NCBI GenBank assembly: GCA_020186115.1
Contig: WSYJ01000113.1
Location: 248,001-312,000 of the forward strand
Source: Histomonas meleagridis
Lineage: Eukaryota > Parabasalia > Tritrichomonadida > Dientamoebidae
Direction of reading: 5' to 3'
Length of the DNA: 64,000 nucleotides
Made by a program: the position numbers and the translations under genes. Below, in pieces: positions 2,388-36,253 of the stretch (its first letter is position 1; each line of letters begins with the position of its first letter). The notes under the pieces were generated by a model that saw nothing but the letters and a program-made list of their open reading frames with translations, was not told the origin of the DNA and did no database searches.

Positions 2388-3938
2388 TTAAATACTTTCA
2401 ATAATATTATCTTCATTAAAATCTTTAGCAAATGGATCTTCTTCAATATGCGAAAGTTTATGACATGATGAAATATGACCCATACTTTCAATCTCTTCAA
2501 TATTTGAACTTTCAGTGTATTTGGAGTTTTCTTTAGATTTTTGATGACGAATTAAAAATATTATAAGTAAAGAAATAATAATTAATATTAATATTACTAT
2601 AACACAAACAATTATGATAACGATGTTATTTGTTTTATTATTATCATTGTTATTACTATTAATATTAAAATAATATAATGAATAATATGAATAATAAAAT
2701 GTGTATTGAACAATTGTATATTCATAATAAATATAATTAATATTCGTATATACATTTGTTGAATTTAAAAAAGTTAAGGAATATGTATTTGTTATAAATG
2801 AATTGTTGACAATATATGTTTGTGTGATAATGTAACTATAAGTTAAGGTATTGGAACATGTTAAATTTCTATAAAATGTATTTGAGTTAGTAAATTCGTT
2901 ACTTTGTGAAAATGGATTTGATTTAGTATACGAATCCGAATGTGTAAATGTTATTGTGCTAATGTTAGCATAAAATTCATAAAAATATGAATAACCTGAT
3001 TCGAGTTCTTCATGTTGAATTGTATCATTATACATGAATTCATCACTCAAAATTGAAACTTCAATGTCATTATTTAACATTTGTGGAAATAATATCATTT
3101 TACATTCAATAGTTTCAGAGTTATTCATATTGCAAAGATTTGTAATATTCCAATTATTAAGTGGAAGTGAATCATTATTTATATTTGCTGTTCCATTTAA
3201 TATATTAAAAGTTCCATTATGCTTTAGCCCATTAAAAAATATTGAAATATTTGAATAATTTCTTTTAGTATTTTGATGTACAGTCAAATAGAAATGAGAC
3301 ATTTTATGCATAAAAAAGAATTCTTCATATTGAATATCACCATAAATTGGAAGTGAAACATTTACCTTGGTTGCAAACATAATATCCATTTCTCTTTGAG
3401 TCGACAAATTTTGTTTACTTGTGTCTTTATATAAAATATTATTCGAGGAGTTATAAGGATAATAAGATATCATATCAAATTCTATAAAATCTGTTGGCAT
3501 CCAAAAACTTGGTATAAATATACCAGTGGATTGAAGAGTATAAGGAACGTTTGAATAGTCGAGTAGGAAAGTATTATTATAAAATACTAATAAACCAATT
3601 GTGTCATTTAGCTCCCATGATTCGACAGATGAATATAATGAATTTTGATATATAGGCATTGTTGATTTCGTTGATATGGGTGATTTGCTTTGTAATATTG
3701 ATTCTCCCTTTAATACTTTATGTGCTTCATTCATGATATTGGCCCAGCCTTTACAGCTGTTCATGCTTTTGAATGAATGTTCTTTTGGTATTGATAAATC
3801 TATTTCAATTATAGGTCGACGTCTCAAAATGCCTATCTGAAGATTTGCATGCAATCCAGGTAGTGGGTCGATTTTAATACCTTTCATATATATAACTGCA
3901 GCGAACAAAAAGGAAAGCATATTAATAATTTGGTTCAA
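2388..3938 (-). CDS. Single-pass membrane surface protein with BspA-type stalk and tail
   Basis: A 516-residue protein with a hydrophobic N-terminus (NMLSFLFAAVIY) that could be a signal peptide. The ectodomain of about 320 residues has many N-glycosylation sequons and no leucine-rich repeats; I do not recognise its fold. From about residue 330 comes a Ser/Thr/Asn/Tyr-rich stalk with repeats such as SQSNEFTNSNTF, then one long hydrophobic segment (IVIIIVCVIVILILIIISLL) and a cytoplasmic tail with IEEDPFAKDF close to the end. Stalk, anchor and tail resemble the end of the leucine-rich-repeat protein at 51492-52799. A type I surface receptor or adhesin is likely; the ligand is unknown. The gene is divergent from the importin-like gene. 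Confidence 0.7.
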   Translation of the reverse strand: MNQIINMLSFLFAAVIYMKGIKIDPLPGLHANLQIGILRRRPIIEIDLSIPKEHSFKSMNSCKGWANIMNEAHKVLKGESILQSKSPISTKSTMPIYQNSLYSSVESWELNDTIGLLVFYNNTFLLDYSNVPYTLQSTGIFIPSFWMPTDFIEFDMISYYPYNSSNNILYKDTSKQNLSTQREMDIMFATKVNVSLPIYGDIQYEEFFFMHKMSHFYLTVHQNTKRNYSNISIFFNGLKHNGTFNILNGTANINNDSLPLNNWNITNLCNMNNSETIECKMILFPQMLNNDIEVSILSDEFMYNDTIQHEELESGYSYFYEFYANISTITFTHSDSYTKSNPFSQSNEFTNSNTFYRNLTCSNTLTYSYIITQTYIVNNSFITNTYSLTFLNSTNVYTNINYIYYEYTIVQYTFYYSYYSLYYFNINSNNNDNNKTNNIVIIIVCVIVILILIIISLLIIFLIRHQKSKENSKYTESSNIEEIESMGHISSCHKLSHIEEDPFAKDFNEDNIIESI

Positions 3939-4393
3939 ACAGATTTAGAAAATTGAATTGATACACAATTTTTTGTGAAATCATTCAACTTACCTCACAA
4001 ATAGTAGATCTACTTTTTGACTAATTTACAACTCTTTTGGAAAAAAGTGACAAATCCACGAAGGGAACATGTACGTGAATAACCCCTAGAATAATGAAAA
4101 GCAATGGAATTCCTAACAACGCTACCAACTAGTCTATGAGAATTAGATTGCTGTGGTTGTAGATGATAAATATTTTAGTTTTTTGAAATTATTTGATATC
4201 AAAAATATCAAAAAGGATCAAAAAAACTCATCGAGCCTATCTTCATAAACTGGACCCTAGTGAATAATTTATTAATTTTACCCTTTATAAATAAGCATTG
4301 GTGGAAAAAGTTCTGAAAATTATTAGCAATTTTAAATGCATTTTAAATAGATTTTTTTTCAACGCATTTTAATCGTTTTTGTTGTTCCACTTT
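3939..4393. other. Intergenic region between divergent genes
   Basis: AT-rich, with no open frame worth calling and no M3-like octamer on the side of the left gene. The right end leads into the M3-like site of the importin-like gene. Confidence 0.5.
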
Positions 4394-4401
4394 AAACGGT
4401 C
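4394..4401 (-). promoter_or_regulatory. M3-like (Myb-type) core promoter octamer
   Basis: AAACGGTC; the reverse complement GACCGTTT matches the T. vaginalis M3 consensus (A/G/T)(A/G)C(G/C)G(T/C)T(T/A/G). It lies in TTTAAACGGTCT, the same 12-mer found before the phosphatase gene at 19251-19262. The nearest ATG (4408) is 7 bases downstream but opens only an 18-codon frame; the main ORF starts at 4448. Confidence 0.5.
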
Positions 4402-4407
4402 TACATA

Positions 4408-4464
4408 ATGGGTGAACGTTTACTCTATTTCGCTGCTCTATCAACAAATGTTTCCCAGTATTAA
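4408..4464 (+). other. Short upstream open frame overlapping the start of the next gene
   Basis: An ATG 7 bases after the M3-like site opens an 18-codon frame ending in TAA, out of frame with the importin-like gene and overlapping its ATG at 4448. It could be a regulatory uORF, or the true N-terminus displaced by a one-base indel. Confidence 0.35.
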
Positions 4465-6979
4465 AGAAGCAGTCGAAAATCTTTACAATTCAGATGAGCT
4501 TATAAGAGCTCAAGCAATCGAAGTATGCAAAAAATTTCAAACTCCGGAATATTTTAATTGGAATATTTTTCTACAATTCTCAAATTTTTCCATGCACCCT
4601 GCATACAGGATTTTTTCATATAAATCATTGATGGAAATCATCAAAAAAAATTGGAATTTTTTAGGAATTGATTTGAAAAATATGATTTCTTCCAATTTTC
4701 CTTTTTTAAATGATTCACCAATTAATGGAGATCAGCTCCTTCCCACAATTATTGATTGTGCTTCATGTTATTTAACTTATGCTTCTTCACCAGAAAACAT
4801 TATAAATTTTTTTAATCAATTTCAAAACTTTCATATCCTTTTCTGTGCCCCGTTACTTGCAACTTTCTTAGAGTCACTAAACACAAGCATTTTACCAAAA
4901 GAACGAAATAAACTTTTTACAAATTCCTTTATCACAAAAATTACATCATTTGTAAAAATAATTATTATTGAGCCGCTTTTTAGATGTAATGCTGATAGTC
5001 AAGAGTTTCTGTATCTCTTAAATTTAGTTTCAATTATTTTTCAATCATCAGCAGAATTTATTAAAATCGTTCTATCTGATCCTCAAACCCAGGATTTTTT
5101 TGCAGGAATTTCTTCATTTCTTTGGCAATTTACAAATAACAATTCAATATGTAAAATCTATGATTCAATTCTTGAAACAGGAATCCCATTTGTTCCTATA
5201 ATAGGACAATTAATATCTACATCAAAGTTCTTTCTCGAGAATTATTCTGCTTTATTTGTTCCATCGATTCCTTCTGACATTAATTATTCACAATGTCTGT
5301 TTTCATTTCTTGAACGTTTACCAATTTTTTTTCAGTTACTAAATTACGTTAACCCGGAGACCGTTTTTCTCTTTGAAATCGTATCGCACTTTTTACATTC
5401 AAATTCGCCATCGGTTATTTCCGAAACTGCTTCTTTAGCAGGTGCTTTTTTTCAACGCTATTTGGATTCAGCTGAGTTTCGCTCCGCTTTTATGAATCAA
5501 ATTTTGCTTTTTTTTCAAGAGTGTATCAATTTGATATCGACACAACTTGACCAAATCCCTGGAGCTTCTTTTGATGAGCTTTGGAATCAACAAGTCGTTC
5601 GTTCCAATCTTTTTTCATTTGTAAAAACCCTTTCAATGTATAATTTACCATTAATTGTACAAAAGATAATTGAACTTATACTTCAACAAACGCAAGAATC
5701 CCCACTCCTTGATGGCCTTATTCGAATATTATCTTCCATACTTCATCCACAACTTCCAATTCAAAATGAATCCAAGCAGCTTTCCATGTTTTTACTATCA
5801 ATTGTTATTCATCTTTCACCAAAACTACAGAACCATGCCATAGTTTTACTTACCAAACTCCTTCCATATCTTATATTTGATCAAAATGATTTAAACATAT
5901 ATTTCAATCATCTTTTAACCCTATACATATCAGGTCAATGTACAGCCTTTGATCTTCTCAATGATTATTTCCTTAAATTCTATGGAAATTTTTCACATAT
6001 TGGTATCAATATTCCACATGATCAACTTGCACAAATTCCATCCAACAACGTAAGTTATTACACCATCTCTAAGCTCTTTTTTTCCGACACGTTTTCTCTT
6101 GCGAATGCGATAGAAGAACTTCAATGGTTTACAACGTCATTTAATTTTCATGATCCTGAACATCAAATCCGACTCAACCAAACTATTTCTCGAGCATTTG
6201 ATTTTATATCGACCATTCAGACAGTTCTTGATCCGAACATTATTACATTGTTATTTGAGAGTAATAATGTCATCATTCGAATCATTAATAACATTGACAA
6301 TGAAAATCAATCATCGAAACTTATTACGCCATTACAGAACTTATCTAAATCGATTTTATATATTACAAGTAATAACATTTATATAAGTTATATAATAAAT
6401 GAAATTAATCGAATCGAATTTCCAAACACATTTTTTAATTGCACATTTATATGGCTGAAAACATTAATAATTCCGTTGCTACAAATGTTACATCAATACG
6501 TTCCAAATGATGTTTCTGTTTTTTCGTACAAAATTTGTTTGCATTTCGTTCCTTTAATTACACAAATAGAAAATAACGTGTCAAAGAAAATCACAATTTT
6601 GATTTGCGATGTTACAAAGTTTTTGGACTCGAATAACACAATCGAAGTGTTGCTGCACTGTCTGAGGGCGAACTTGGACGACTTCAGAGTCTTCGTTTCC
6701 ATATTTAAGGCAGCGTGCTGTAAAGATTTAAATGTTTTGCCTTTCCTGTGGAACGACATCATTACGATAATTAAGGACCAGCAGCAGCAGCAGTACACTG
6801 ACTTCGTCGCAGAGGAATTAATGGAAATGTGCAAAAGGTTCGGAAATGATATTAATGTGCTGAAGGCGCTGCAGGGAGTTAGCGAGGAAAAAGTCGAGTG
6901 GCTGAGGGAAAGAATAGCAAACGTGTCAACGATGAAAGGCGTCAAAAGGTGTTTTAAGTTGTTTATAAATATTCAATAA
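4448..6979 (+). CDS. Importin-beta/exportin-like helical repeat protein
   Basis: About 843 residues of amphipathic helices typical of HEAT-type repeats. The first 60 residues (SIKEAVENLYNSDELIRAQA, then a Tyr/Phe-rich helix and a YKSLMEIIKKNW segment) resemble the N-terminal Ran-binding helices of karyopherins, where short repeats shield nuclear cargo. No catalytic motif is present. I start it at the first ATG in frame (4448); the open frame extends to 4412 only through a GTG. The last 350 bases are clearly richer in G+C than the middle and include a CAG run coding for QQQQQ. The stop is TAA followed by A. The karyopherin call rests on the N-terminus and length; another HEAT-repeat family remains possible. 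Confidence 0.5.
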   Translation: MFPSIKEAVENLYNSDELIRAQAIEVCKKFQTPEYFNWNIFLQFSNFSMHPAYRIFSYKSLMEIIKKNWNFLGIDLKNMISSNFPFLNDSPINGDQLLPTIIDCASCYLTYASSPENIINFFNQFQNFHILFCAPLLATFLESLNTSILPKERNKLFTNSFITKITSFVKIIIIEPLFRCNADSQEFLYLLNLVSIIFQSSAEFIKIVLSDPQTQDFFAGISSFLWQFTNNNSICKIYDSILETGIPFVPIIGQLISTSKFFLENYSALFVPSIPSDINYSQCLFSFLERLPIFFQLLNYVNPETVFLFEIVSHFLHSNSPSVISETASLAGAFFQRYLDSAEFRSAFMNQILLFFQECINLISTQLDQIPGASFDELWNQQVVRSNLFSFVKTLSMYNLPLIVQKIIELILQQTQESPLLDGLIRILSSILHPQLPIQNESKQLSMFLLSIVIHLSPKLQNHAIVLLTKLLPYLIFDQNDLNIYFNHLLTLYISGQCTAFDLLNDYFLKFYGNFSHIGINIPHDQLAQIPSNNVSYYTISKLFFSDTFSLANAIEELQWFTTSFNFHDPEHQIRLNQTISRAFDFISTIQTVLDPNIITLLFESNNVIIRIINNIDNENQSSKLITPLQNLSKSILYITSNNIYISYIINEINRIEFPNTFFNCTFIWLKTLIIPLLQMLHQYVPNDVSVFSYKICLHFVPLITQIENNVSKKITILICDVTKFLDSNNTIEVLLHCLRANLDDFRVFVSIFKAACCKDLNVLPFLWNDIITIIKDQQQQQYTDFVAEELMEMCKRFGNDINVLKALQGVSEEKVEWLRERIANVSTMKGVKRCFKLFINIQ

Positions 6980-30376: not shown

Positions 30377-30711
30377 TCATAATATTAAAGTATTGATGTA
30401 TTTTCGTTTTGCTTTGTGAATATATTTGTTATAATGTATATTGTGATTTTGATGATTTTCATATGTTTGAGTGTTTACATCAACACTTTTGATACTTTTC
30501 TTTTTATTGTTTTCTGTGAACATTTGATCTTCGAGTTGATTTTGATCATTCGTAATATATGCTTTATTTCCATATCTTATTGAAAATGAAGATTTGATGT
30601 TTATAGAAGAAGAGTCTGAATTGGAATTTTCGTTTGTACTTTTTCCAAGAAGTAAAATTACTATTTCTGTGTAACCTTTTTGTTGTGCAATTTGAATTGC
30701 AGTCAAATATT
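30377..30711 (-). pseudogene. C-terminal segment of the interrupted ankyrin gene
   Basis: A 110-codon open frame starting with one more ankyrin unit (TAIQIAQQKGYTEIVILLLG) and a polar tail (NENSNSDSSS ... RKYINTLIL). It has no promoter of its own and begins exactly where the last minisatellite array ends, so it is the 3' end of the gene that starts at 33103. Confidence 0.6.
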
Positions 30712-31860
30712 GTTAAAACATATTTCAGATTATTAAAACATATTCCAAATTATTTAAACATATTTCAAATTATTTAAACATATTCCAAATTATTAAAACA
30801 TATATAAAATTATTAAAACATATTCTAAATTATTCGAATAAATACTTTTTGCATTGACATCAATTCCTTTTTGTTCTAAAAGTAATTTTACTATTTCAAT
30901 ATTATGATTTCTAACTGCTATATGAAGTGATGTTTCAAATTATTAAAACATATTTCAAATTATTAAAACATATTCCAAATTATTAAAAAATATCCAAAAT
31001 TATTAAAACATAAATAATATTATTAAAACATATTTCAAATTATTAAAACATATTCCAAATTATTAAAAAATATCCAAAATTATTAAAACATAAATAATAT
31101 TATTAAAACATATTCCAAATTATTAAAACATATATAAAATTAATCAAATGAATATTTTTTGCATTAACATCAATTCCTTCTTTATCTAAAAGTAATTTTA
31201 CTATTTCAATATTATTATTTCTAACTGCTATATGAAGTGCTGTTTCAAATTATTAAAACATATTTCAAATTATTAAAACATATTTCAAATTATTAAAACA
31301 TATTCCAAATTATTAAAACATATATAAAATTAATCAAATGAATATTTTTTGCATTAACATCAATTCCTTCTTTATCTAAAAGTAATTTTACTATTTCAAT
31401 ATTATTATTTCTAACTGCTATATGAAGTGCTGTTTCAAATGATTAAAACATATTTCAAATTATTAAAACATATATAAAATTATTAAAACATATTTCAAAT
31501 TATAAAAATGAATATTTTTTGCATTAACATCAATTTCTTTATCTAAAAGTAATTTTACTATTTCTATATTATTATTTCTAACTGCTATATGAAGTGCTGT
31601 TTCAGGTTATTTAAACATATTTCAAATTATTAAAACATATATAAAATTATTAAAACATATTCTAAATTATTAAAACATATCCAAAATTATTCAAATGAAT
31701 AGTTTTTGCATTAACATCAATTCCTTTATCTAAAAGTAATTTTACTATTTCTATATTATTATTTTTAACTGCTATATGAAGTGCTGTTTCAAATTATTAA
31801 AACATATTCCAAATCATTAAAACTTATTATAAATTATTAAAACATATTCCAAAATATTTA
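30712..31860 (-). repeat. 20-bp minisatellite arrays alternating with ankyrin-repeat modules
   Basis: Five ankyrin modules of about 95 bp (near 30841-30937, 31151-31247, 31341-31437, 31510-31603, 31699-31790) read TALHIAVRNNNIEIVKLLL then GIDVNAK on the minus strand. Between them, and on both outer sides, lie arrays of one to about ten copies of a 20-bp unit, on the plus strand AAATTATTAAAACATATTCC with variants (TTTC, TATA, TCTA). Every array sits at the same point of the ankyrin unit, after NAK-x-I and before ET(A/S)LH. Because 20 is not a multiple of three and the unit contains TAATAA, any three copies close all frames. Modules 2 and 3 with their arrays form a near-identical 190-bp duplication. 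Confidence 0.85.
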
Positions 31861-33103
31861 AATGAATATATTTTGCATTAACATCAATTCCTTCTTGTTC
31901 TAAAACATATTTCACAAGTTCGATATTTCCTGATTCTGAAGCATATGGCAAAATATTTTTTGGAATTTGACTATTTTTAAGGAAATATTTAACGAGATAT
32001 AAATTTCCATTTCTTGATGATTGGTTTATATTATTAGCATTAACATTAATTCCTTTTTCTTCCAAAAATGTTAAAATTTTATAATTATCTTTCTCAATAC
32101 AAAAACTTACTAAATCATTAGTTTTATCTTCAGACATTTTCGGTATTGATTGTATTTTTTCTAATTTATTTTCATAAAGATAGATAAAGATATCATTTTG
32201 ATGGAACTTAATTGCTGTTTCATATGCATCTTCAAATGATGAATTGTTTTGTTCACACAAATGAATAATTTCAAGATTTCCACCTGCAACTGCATATTTA
32301 CCTGTATTTATTACATTTGCACCATTCATAAGTAAATATTTAAAACATTTAACAGATCCAAAAAATGCTGCATAATCAATTAATGTAACATTCTTTTGAT
32401 TAATAAATGAACACCTTTCATAAAGTGATGGTTCAATTATTTGATTAAAATCAAAATTTGTTAGTGATGATATTTCTTGAAGTTTTTCAATTTCATCATT
32501 TCGAATTATTTTCGAAATTTCATTAGGATTAACTCCTTCTTTAATTAATTGCTTATGAAGTTTCCAATCATTCTTTGATAGCTCTTCATAATGATCCATA
32601 AAGTATTTTACGATTGGACCAAATGCTCTGTGTGTTTGATTTTGGTTTTCTTCTTCTATTTTATAATGAGCAAAATATTTTGAATTAATATTTTTTGTGA
32701 TATTTTTATCAATTAAATTTTGTTCAATTAGTTTCTCGATTAAATAATATGATTCTTGTGCGTTCTTTGTAGATATACGTTTGACAAAAATTGAAATTAG
32801 TTTAACGTCACTTTGATTAATTTCTTCTTCTTTAGATTGAAGTGTTTTTAAAAAATTTAAGTAAATATCAAATAAATGCTTTGGTGATGAAAATGCATTA
32901 TAAACGATGCTACTTATAATCGTATTAAATGTATAGGGATTATTTGAATCAAATAATTTTAATACTTTTTTAATGGAAGGCTGAATGTTTTCTTCGGTTA
33001 AACTGAATATAGTTTTCTCAAGCTCGATTAAGAATTTCAAGCTGGTTGATAGATTATTCGAATTTTTATCTTCTGTATTTGTGGTAGCATCATTATTAGG
33101 CAT
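31817..33103 (-). CDS. Ankyrin-repeat protein (intact 5' part of an interrupted gene)
   Basis: 428 residues. The N-terminal 170 residues are helical, followed by a linker (FGPIVKYFMDHYEELSKNDW) and ankyrin repeats from about residue 225 (TLIDYAAFFGSVKCFKYLLM, ending ASESGNIELVKYVLEQEGID). This layout matches the large trichomonad ankyrin family (DUF3447-like N-terminal region). The frame ends a few codons into the first 20-bp array, at VNAKYIHLNILEYVLII. If nothing is spliced, the protein is truncated there; more ankyrin modules continue downstream to 30377. A well-formed promoter stands just upstream (33106-33126), so it may still be expressed. Confidence 0.7.
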   Translation of the reverse strand: MPNNDATTNTEDKNSNNLSTSLKFLIELEKTIFSLTEENIQPSIKKVLKLFDSNNPYTFNTIISSIVYNAFSSPKHLFDIYLNFLKTLQSKEEEINQSDVKLISIFVKRISTKNAQESYYLIEKLIEQNLIDKNITKNINSKYFAHYKIEEENQNQTHRAFGPIVKYFMDHYEELSKNDWKLHKQLIKEGVNPNEISKIIRNDEIEKLQEISSLTNFDFNQIIEPSLYERCSFINQKNVTLIDYAAFFGSVKCFKYLLMNGANVINTGKYAVAGGNLEIIHLCEQNNSSFEDAYETAIKFHQNDIFIYLYENKLEKIQSIPKMSEDKTNDLVSFCIEKDNYKILTFLEEKGINVNANNINQSSRNGNLYLVKYFLKNSQIPKNILPYASESGNIELVKYVLEQEGIDVNAKYIHLNILEYVLIIYNKF

Positions 33104-33105
33104 AT

Positions 33106-33126
33106 GAAAAATGAGTTTTAACGGTT
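33106..33126 (-). promoter_or_regulatory. M3-like octamer plus Inr-like sequence, the best promoter in the window
   Basis: On the minus strand: AACCGTTA, then AAAC, then TCATTTTTCATA running into the ATG at 33103. AACCGTTA fits M3, and TCATTTTTCATA fits the T. vaginalis initiator TCAYTWYTCATTA nearly throughout. Spacing and order match the described M3-plus-Inr promoters, giving a leader of about 10 bases. Confidence 0.65.
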
Positions 33127-33612
33127 ATAAAAACCACCCTGTTGGAAATACAGTAAAAGTGGAGAAACACGTTGGACAGCTTTTTGTTGCAGATGGCCAA
33201 AATTACTGGCTTATAGACGCTTAATAATTATGGCCGATGGACATTACTTGCTGTCCGGGTGAAAAGAGAGTCATCATAATTTTTTCAATCCATGGATTTC
33301 GTTTGTAAGTTATATTTATTGTGAATATATGTTGTTAAACTTATTTTGTTATTTATACTCTATATTATACACACAAAATAAAAATATTTCCATTTTTATT
33401 CATTTCCCATTTTTTCTTTTGTTGTTTGGTCTTTGATTACACCAAAAATGACTTTGGTTTTCCAAACGATTATTTTTGATTCAAAAAGTTGTATACCAAT
33501 TTGAATTTATTTCGATTTTAAAATGGATTAACCGTTAAAACTCATTCTAATAAAAAGAAGCTTTTTTTGTTTTTTGGATACGTTATCGTGATTAAAATTT
33601 CAATTTATTGTA
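33127..33612. other. Intergenic region with an orphan promoter-like site
   Basis: No gene. At 33530-33546 the plus strand carries AACCGTTAAAACTCATT, identical over 17 bases to the promoter of the ankyrin gene on the other strand, but no open frame follows. The 740-bp repeat begins 66 bases later. Confidence 0.5.
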
Positions 33613-35409: not shown

Positions 35410-36127
35410 ATGAATGTTTGTTTGTTTTTGGTTTTTATGGTTCATTCATTTGAAGTGTTTGACAATCAAACAAAAACGCTCACAATAACAAGCGAAGAGG
35501 AATTCAAAACGGATGAAGAATTTATTCATCAGGCTTTGCACACCATAATAGGAGATGAAATCCGTGAAATTCAAGTTAATTTCTATTTTCTGAATGCAAT
35601 CACACTTAAAATTGGCAATTCAATAAGTTCAATTCCTGGTGATTGTTTTAGAGAAAGTAGTTATAGGAAATTATTTTTGGTTCGAATGTTAGCTCAATTG
35701 GAGAAGGTGCATTCAATCTTTGTTATTCCCTTAAGCAACTTGTTTTTCCAAATTCGTTAATTTCTATTGGTAGAAATGGATTTTCAAGATGTACTTCATT
35801 GACGAACATAGTTTTCAGAGAATGCCTCGAATCAATTGGTGAAAATTGTTTTACGGAATGTAGTTCACTTCTAAATGTTAAATTCCCAGACTCATTATCT
35901 ATTATTAATTCACAGGCATTTTTCACTTGTACAAATTTAACAAAAATAATATTTGGGAAATATATAACAACTATTAATGAAGCTGTGTTTGCTGTATGTA
36001 TTTCACTCAAAAGAATAGAAATTTCAGATTCTTTAACGACAATCGCATCAATTTTATTTGCATTCTTAAGAACATTGTTTTTATTGATTGCATTCTTCCA
36101 AAATTATGTGTTGTCACTAGAATTTTG
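35410..36127 (+). pseudogene. BspA-like leucine-rich-repeat surface protein, frameshifted
   Basis: ATG 35410 gives a signal peptide (MNVCLFLVFMVHSF) and the first repeat units, then loses frame near 35680 in a TTATTTTTGG run. The next frame continues perfectly as SSIGEGAFNLCYSLKQLVFP, SIGRNGFSRCTSLTNIVF, SIGENCFTECSSLLNVKFP and INSQAFFTCTNLTKIIFG, the 23-residue LRR_5 repeat of BspA-like proteins. Around 36050 it decays again, and no stalk, membrane anchor or tail follows. The family sits on the trichomonad surface. It could be a recent pseudogene or, for the first break, a sequencing error; the missing C-terminus argues for a pseudogene. Confidence 0.8.
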
Positions 36128-36253
36128 ATGTTCATCAGGTTAGAAGCTTAATTGAAGATAACTGGAACTAGTGTTGAAGATCTTCTGTGATATTAAAGAA
36201 GATGCCCAGAAGTCAAAACTAAAATTTGTGAATTTCTATGATTAAAAGAGACT

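Follow-up and report, generated by a model that had tools for sequence, protein, structure and literature searches.

Frame-breaking arrays of a 20-nucleotide unit separate ankyrin modules in Histomonas meleagridis and are probably either excised from RNA or bypassed during translation

Histomonas meleagridis is a parasite of the bird gut. The window analyzed here, a stretch of 64,000 nucleotides (nt) of its genome (contig WSYJ01000113.1, positions 248,001 to 312,000), carries on its minus strand an ankyrin gene whose long first exon, repeat modules and terminal segment are set apart from one another by arrays of a 20-base unit. Judging from sequence, these spacers are probably removed from the RNA or skipped in translation, because stop codons are rare in the modules only and because 17 of the 18 homologues that reach the spacer site end or leave frame at the same codon. 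Directly observed are the fixed position of the spacers, their 20-nt steps in length, the loss of reading frame across them, the avoidance of stops in the modules, the free gain of stops in the spacers, the lack of canonical splice signals, and frame exit at the same site in relatives.

The layout described by the sequence-only reading, namely a first open reading frame, five ankyrin modules and a terminal segment on the minus strand with 20-bp arrays between them, is borne out by both coordinates and spacer lengths (Table 1). The first exon, whose open frame extends to 31817, inside spacer 0, matches the Ank_2 (2.6e-11) and DUF3447 (3e-09) profiles above their cut-offs, which places it among the ankyrin repeat proteins. 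The five modules are near-identical and of the ETALH/ETSLH type; every spacer begins after the K-x-I codon and stops before the (E)TALH codon or, at the terminal segment, before TAIQ. No spacer length among the six is a multiple of three, and read-through is blocked, as had been claimed. Tandem Repeats Finder recovers a period of 20 and 30.2 copies from the array, a tandem short unit as in a minisatellite.

The same unit stands at the same position in other ankyrin genes, genome-wide and in two module families. In the 43,276,120 bases and 121 contigs searched (43 Mb, 28% GC, 11,119 genes and 573 introns in the portion of the published genome account available; PMC8529796), the unit TTGGAATATGTTTTAATAAT finds 3739 matches at up to 3 mismatches, versus 464 for the reversed control. 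A pattern joining the array end to the module start yields 599 matches and a module-start pattern of equal length 554, both versus 0 in the control, and the similarity of the two counts suggests that an array end usually accompanies a module of this kind. The genome holds hundreds of spacer-flanked ankyrin modules of this type. At 20 loci picked by exact unit matches rather than by ankyrin content, a script places 63 of 65 arrays of at least two units next to an ankyrin module; the remaining two sit beside ankyrin segments as judged by eye. In such arrays, then, the unit does not lie mostly outside ankyrin genes, in keeping with the position-specific origin proposed earlier; the 95 single units, accepted at up to 5 mismatches so that some of the module-free ones are chance matches, divide into 47 that adjoin a module and 48 that adjoin none.

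Family 1 comprises the modules of the window type, and family 2 (TALI-AS-GHTEIVKLLLEQEGIDINAKDI) is more diverged. The 176 junctions sampled, on 27 locus strands, include 70 of family 1 and 106 of family 2. Family 2 has a 170-base period and, in 70 of its junctions, a 74-base spacer that can be read as three diverged 20-mers. Spacer length leaves a remainder of 14 on division by 20 in 68 of the family-1 and 76 of the family-2 junctions, the other remainders being mostly 17 (13 junctions) and 15 (12 junctions). The longest spacers measure 454 nt, and arrays reach 22 units (locus L021). Units are homogenized within loci; in family 1, 17 of the 20 unit positions are conserved at 92% or more and positions 3–5 are free, the selection of units by similarity inflating the former figure and not the contrast with positions 3–5. 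One locus, L029 (contig C72), bears a run of 31 modules with mixed spacings of 170, 171 and 172 bases; the spacer is read through in some of the 171-base units, and a frameshift is common to several modules.

Across the sampled junctions the frame is lost at 141, and a further 20 stay in frame with a stop; the 15 that are readable all belong to family 2. Not one of 30 module runs is readable throughout. Junction spacing modulo 3 (0, 1, 2) is distributed as 14, 20, 36 in family 1 and as 21, 6, 79 in family 2, with at least two of these values in 16 of the 20 runs that have at least three junctions and all three in five runs. At L021 (positions 3800–6000), an in-frame TAA directly follows K-R-I in three modules of the gene that carries the arrays of up to 22 units, and this gene is possibly a dead copy.

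Stop codons are where modules and spacers part. Stop-making A/T variants are seen in 3 of 10 cases in family-2 modules versus 86 of 111 for other variants (p=0.003), and in 2 of 19 versus 76 of 211 in family-1 modules (p=0.018; three of the 31 long modules excluded). Family-2 spacers, by comparison, contain 28 of 31 stop variants when the three frames are counted together. An in-frame stop occurs in 5 of 110 family-2 modules (four of them in L029; one frame-broken unit of the 111 excluded) versus about 55 expected from neutral simulation, and in 2 of 49 family-1 modules (three first-exon modules left out) versus 12.6, expectations that run high because the simulation treats shared ancestry as independent change. 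One frame fits 195 of 207 modules over most of the profile. Among 25 old units, variation at codon positions 1, 2 and 3 is 0.446, 0.263 and 0.421, with 0.383 in the spacer, and the second position falls below the third in 500 of 500 resamplings of loci. The ratio of nonsynonymous to synonymous polymorphism (pN/pS) descends from 0.99 in units with near-identical spacers to 0.66 in the most diverged bin, but a wrong-frame control lies lower still and this trend carries no weight for coding.

Amino-acid variation in family 2 peaks at residues 1, 6, 9, 12, 31 and 10, where synonymous change is low. Four loci, each with 4 to 12 units, were compared for this variable set, itself chosen from the same data: differences amount to 0.27–0.48 in the variable codons, 0.03–0.30 elsewhere in the module and 0.06–0.37 in the spacer; the contrast between variable codons and the rest is weaker in L031, L030 and L016 than in L033, whose 6 units of 170 bases give 0.292, 0.033 and 0.062, respectively. 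Only residues 1, 9 and 10 match the positions varied in designed ankyrins, which we take to be the ankyrin binding positions. The variable residues hint at a diversifying recognition repertoire.

First-exon homologues, at about 50% identity, came from ENA contigs, and a Histomonas meleagridis protein (P0018) is among the homologues of the window gene; 23 of the 90 found were examined. Eight of the 18 records that reach the K-x-I site end there, seven after x-[IV] and P0009 after K-N-D, presumably with a stop following; nine run into residues that appear spacer-like by eye, and P0013 continues in frame. The sequence-only reading had suggested that the unit may have grown from loop-coding sequence. 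Recent growth of this kind is left without support, because the spacer that family 2 has at this site is 74 bases long and made of three diverged 20-mers, and because relatives at such a distance leave frame there too. It had also left the choice between a repetitive intron and a gene being broken up. Since the modules avoid stops and keep to one frame while spacers gain stops freely, the intron alternative fits better and now leads, with removal at the RNA level as its presumed form, and the break-up alternative recedes.

The leading explanation, which we regard as an even call, makes the window gene one of a large family of ankyrin-repeat genes in which a non-coding spacer trails every coding module at K-x-I. 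The spacers would be cut out, presumably at the RNA level, and the modules thereby united in one ankyrin solenoid, presumably produced as protein. Recognition may depend on the conserved core of the unit and on a TTTGG about 20 nt before the module, a motif found at −23 in 23 of 34 old spacers versus 12 other occurrences in 2252 positions. Spliceosome parts are present and count in favor of removal: U2 with GUGUAGUAUCU, U6 with ACAGAGA (43.7 bits, just below the cut-off of 44) and a Prp8 domain. The Rfam model for U1 gave no match, either here or in the control genomes. The borders would fall 0–2 nt after K-x-I and 1–5 nt before the module, because the records of relatives end right after K-x-I, the TAA of L021 stands there, and a TAA lies 3–6 bases before family-1 modules. 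As the spacers are intron-like and carry neither GT-AG borders nor a branch site, their removal would be unorthodox. The more specific proposal, which falls somewhat short of an even chance, is an intron class outside the GT-AG rule, spread across a gene family in one trichomonad lineage: a short AT-rich cassette at one ankyrin codon that grows by 20 nt, is recognized by its core and is removed many times per transcript. If true, a large expressed ankyrin gene family may have escaped annotation, a new step of RNA processing or decoding would exist in a diverged eukaryote, and ankyrin arrays could grow and shuffle modules freely, with the frame restored after transcription.

Several results weigh against removal from the RNA. 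L021 has a TAA on each side of the likely border, and broken or truncated modules or loci exist (L016, L017, L023–L026, L028). No protein with several modules joined without spacers occurs among those examined, P0011 having one spacer-free junction (in a second protein search, 15 of 120 listed among 146 found; in a third, P0011 of two). When all base changes in the first 22 codons are counted, family 1 exhibits no clear deficit of stop variants (3 of 9 versus 79 of 189 others; in family 2, 3 of 8 versus 131 of 190), and the ratio of second-codon-position to spacer variation has a 95% range of 0.48–1.14. Pooled pN/pS is 0.86 in family 1 and 1.01 in family 2, and in family 2 the ratio for the wrong frame (0.178/0.343) lies below that for the right frame (0.212/0.253), so pooled pN/pS lends coding no support. 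Viewed as pseudogenes, through relaxed constraint, the two families avoid stops, and their pooled pN/pS is not below the wrong-frame control. Furthermore, 26 of 122 family-2-type rows have an indel event in the first 96 bases (35 beyond), seven of the 26 being 17- or 20-base deletions at the border and several being paired one-base gaps.

The splice signals and RNA folds belong to the same side of the balance. G accounts for at most 3% at the permitted border positions in both families, so GT-AG is not usable there; the GT/AG borders of trichomonad introns are accordingly missing from these positions, which were placed from stops rather than from transcripts. Of the 176 spacers with flanks, 2 contain GTAYGT, 5 contain CTAAY (the trichomonad branch site CTAAC/CTAAT) and 7 contain a loose GT..CTAA..AG. 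The U2 and U6 motifs are canonical. For 20 family-1 spacers RNAalifold proposes 14 pairs, none of which shows two-sided change, and for 25 family-2 spacers it proposes no pairs; conserved structure joining the ends, of the euglenid type, is absent from the spacers of either family. Folded singly, 25 spacers per family (at most 100 nt) give a mean z of −1.64 in family 1 and −0.17 in family 2 versus shuffles, and family-1 units are able to form 20-nt hairpins.

Canonical splice patterns were also sought in the genome at large. The pattern GTATGTN{1,31}CTAACNNNCAG has 2 matches versus 2 in the control, and a looser one 56 versus 139; CTAACACACAG has 11 versus 4. Six 23-base GTATGT..TTCTAAY..AG matches (C8:324941, C27:339910, C53:295081, C74:504606, C107:137946, C120:1825836), not controlled as a set and drawn from a pattern that as a whole lies below its control, are type B candidates by which the genome may use ordinary short introns.

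The best-surviving alternative, which we nonetheless consider rather unlikely, holds that only the first exon is expressed and that the modules form a silent, recombining store in an untranslated tail, their coding sequence renewed through exchange with copies that are expressed, the spacers being homogenized satellite. First exons of relatives closing right after a complete repeat, homogenization within loci, a pooled family-2 profile in which spacers and modules are conserved to about the same degree, the lack of a several-module joined protein among those examined, and a pooled pN/pS near 1 in units with similar spacers are all consistent with it. However, stop variants are rare in the modules only, and stops remain mostly avoided in old units whose spacers have diverged. 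Nor is there a spacer-free neighboring pair, which would be directly expressible: among 177 module pairs less than 260 bases apart in the fetched loci none is about 100 bases apart (the smallest is 117), and the 27 close pairs among the matches listed are 170 (20), 173 (6) or 156 (1) bases apart.

Translational bypassing, in which the spacers would stay in the mRNA and ribosomes would skip them, taking off after K-x-I and landing before (E)TALH, appears improbable. It would accommodate borders that are not splice-like and stops that coincide with the take-off point or closely follow it in some genes, and there is a precedent of 81 skipped inserts in Magnusiomyces mitochondria, according to the available part of PMC5009743. 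Yet the spacers reach several hundred nucleotides and have no conserved hairpin. By inspection, matching take-off and landing codons are not seen in the spacer consensus, a comparison at the level of the consensus rather than of each gene. We know of no cytoplasmic precedent for bypassing on such a scale. Some known bypass cases lack perfect take-off and landing matches (PMC5009743, in part).

That the spacers are translated as inserts is very improbable: the readable family-2 junctions and relatives with several in-frame spacers (P0091, P0094 and P0096 among the 15 examined) point that way, but the relatives emerged under a length limit that favors open frames, most junctions lose the frame or meet a stop, and stops accumulate freely in family-2 spacers. 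An assembly or base-calling artefact is scarcely credible, for although the published assembly used Nanopore reads (PMC8529796, in part) and the 171- and 172-nt variants of L029 are one-base insertions, spacer-like sequence also occurs in separate ENA contigs, and 20-nt steps and stops are not single-base errors.

Table 1. Parts of the ankyrin gene (window positions; spacers are 14+20n bases, n = 3, 4, 3, 4, 10, 6 in order)
Feature	Position	Strand	Details
First exon, ATG to K-Y-I codon	31865..33103	-	DUF3447 + ankyrin repeats
Spacer 0	31791..31864	-	74 nt = 14+3x20
Ankyrin module 1	31698..31790	-	31 codons
Spacer 1	31604..31697	-	94 nt = 14+4x20
Ankyrin module 2	31511..31603	-	31 codons
Spacer 2	31437..31510	-	74 nt = 14+3x20
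Ankyrin module 3	31341..31436	-	32 codons
Spacer 3	31247..31340	-	94 nt = 14+4x20
Ankyrin module 4	31151..31246	-	32 codons
Spacer 4	30937..31150	-	214 nt = 14+10x20
Ankyrin module 5	30841..30936	-	32 codons
Spacer 5	30707..30840	-	134 nt = 14+6x20
Terminal segment, LTAIQIAQQKGYTEIV... to stop	30377..30706	-	no Pfam match on its own

Upstream of the ankyrin ATG lies TCATTT, which resembles a trichomonad initiator. On the minus strand the sequence AACCGTTAAAACTCATT directly precedes the same ATG, and it recurs near 33530 on the plus strand (within window positions 33110–33550); its two copies are perhaps a shared promoter element. Close to the ankyrin gene, a short frame at 35799–36128 holds a BspA-type leucine-rich repeat fragment (PF13306, 5.9e-20).

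No account of such spacers was found in the literature searched, including the available portions of PMC12316389 and PMC10063853. The spliceosomal introns of trichomonads are, like the spacers, short inserts within genes, some of them ankyrin genes; as far as the available text of PMC12316389 goes, those of Trichomonas vaginalis (types A and B) are few, 63 in the genome and one per gene, strictly GT-AG, with a fused ACTAA branch site. The spacers, by contrast, are without GT/AG or branch signals and come one per repeat, several per gene. Euglenid nonconventional introns share the lack of conserved borders (PMC6221363, PMC4770533, both in part), but they form a stable structure that joins their ends, of which none is conserved here, and the fixed position and 20-nt steps of the spacers are unlike them. 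The bypassed inserts of Magnusiomyces capitatus, as given in part of PMC5009743, are likewise many, short and frame-breaking in working genes; they are mitochondrial, whereas the spacers are presumably nuclear, occupy one fixed repeat site and comprise up to 22 units. Lastly, intragenic minisatellites resemble the spacers in their head-to-tail 20-bp arrays of variable copy number. Unlike ordinary minisatellites, however, the spacers are confined to one codon of one module type, and their unit varies at positions 3–5 against a core of 17 positions held at 92% or more, a level raised by similarity-picked units.
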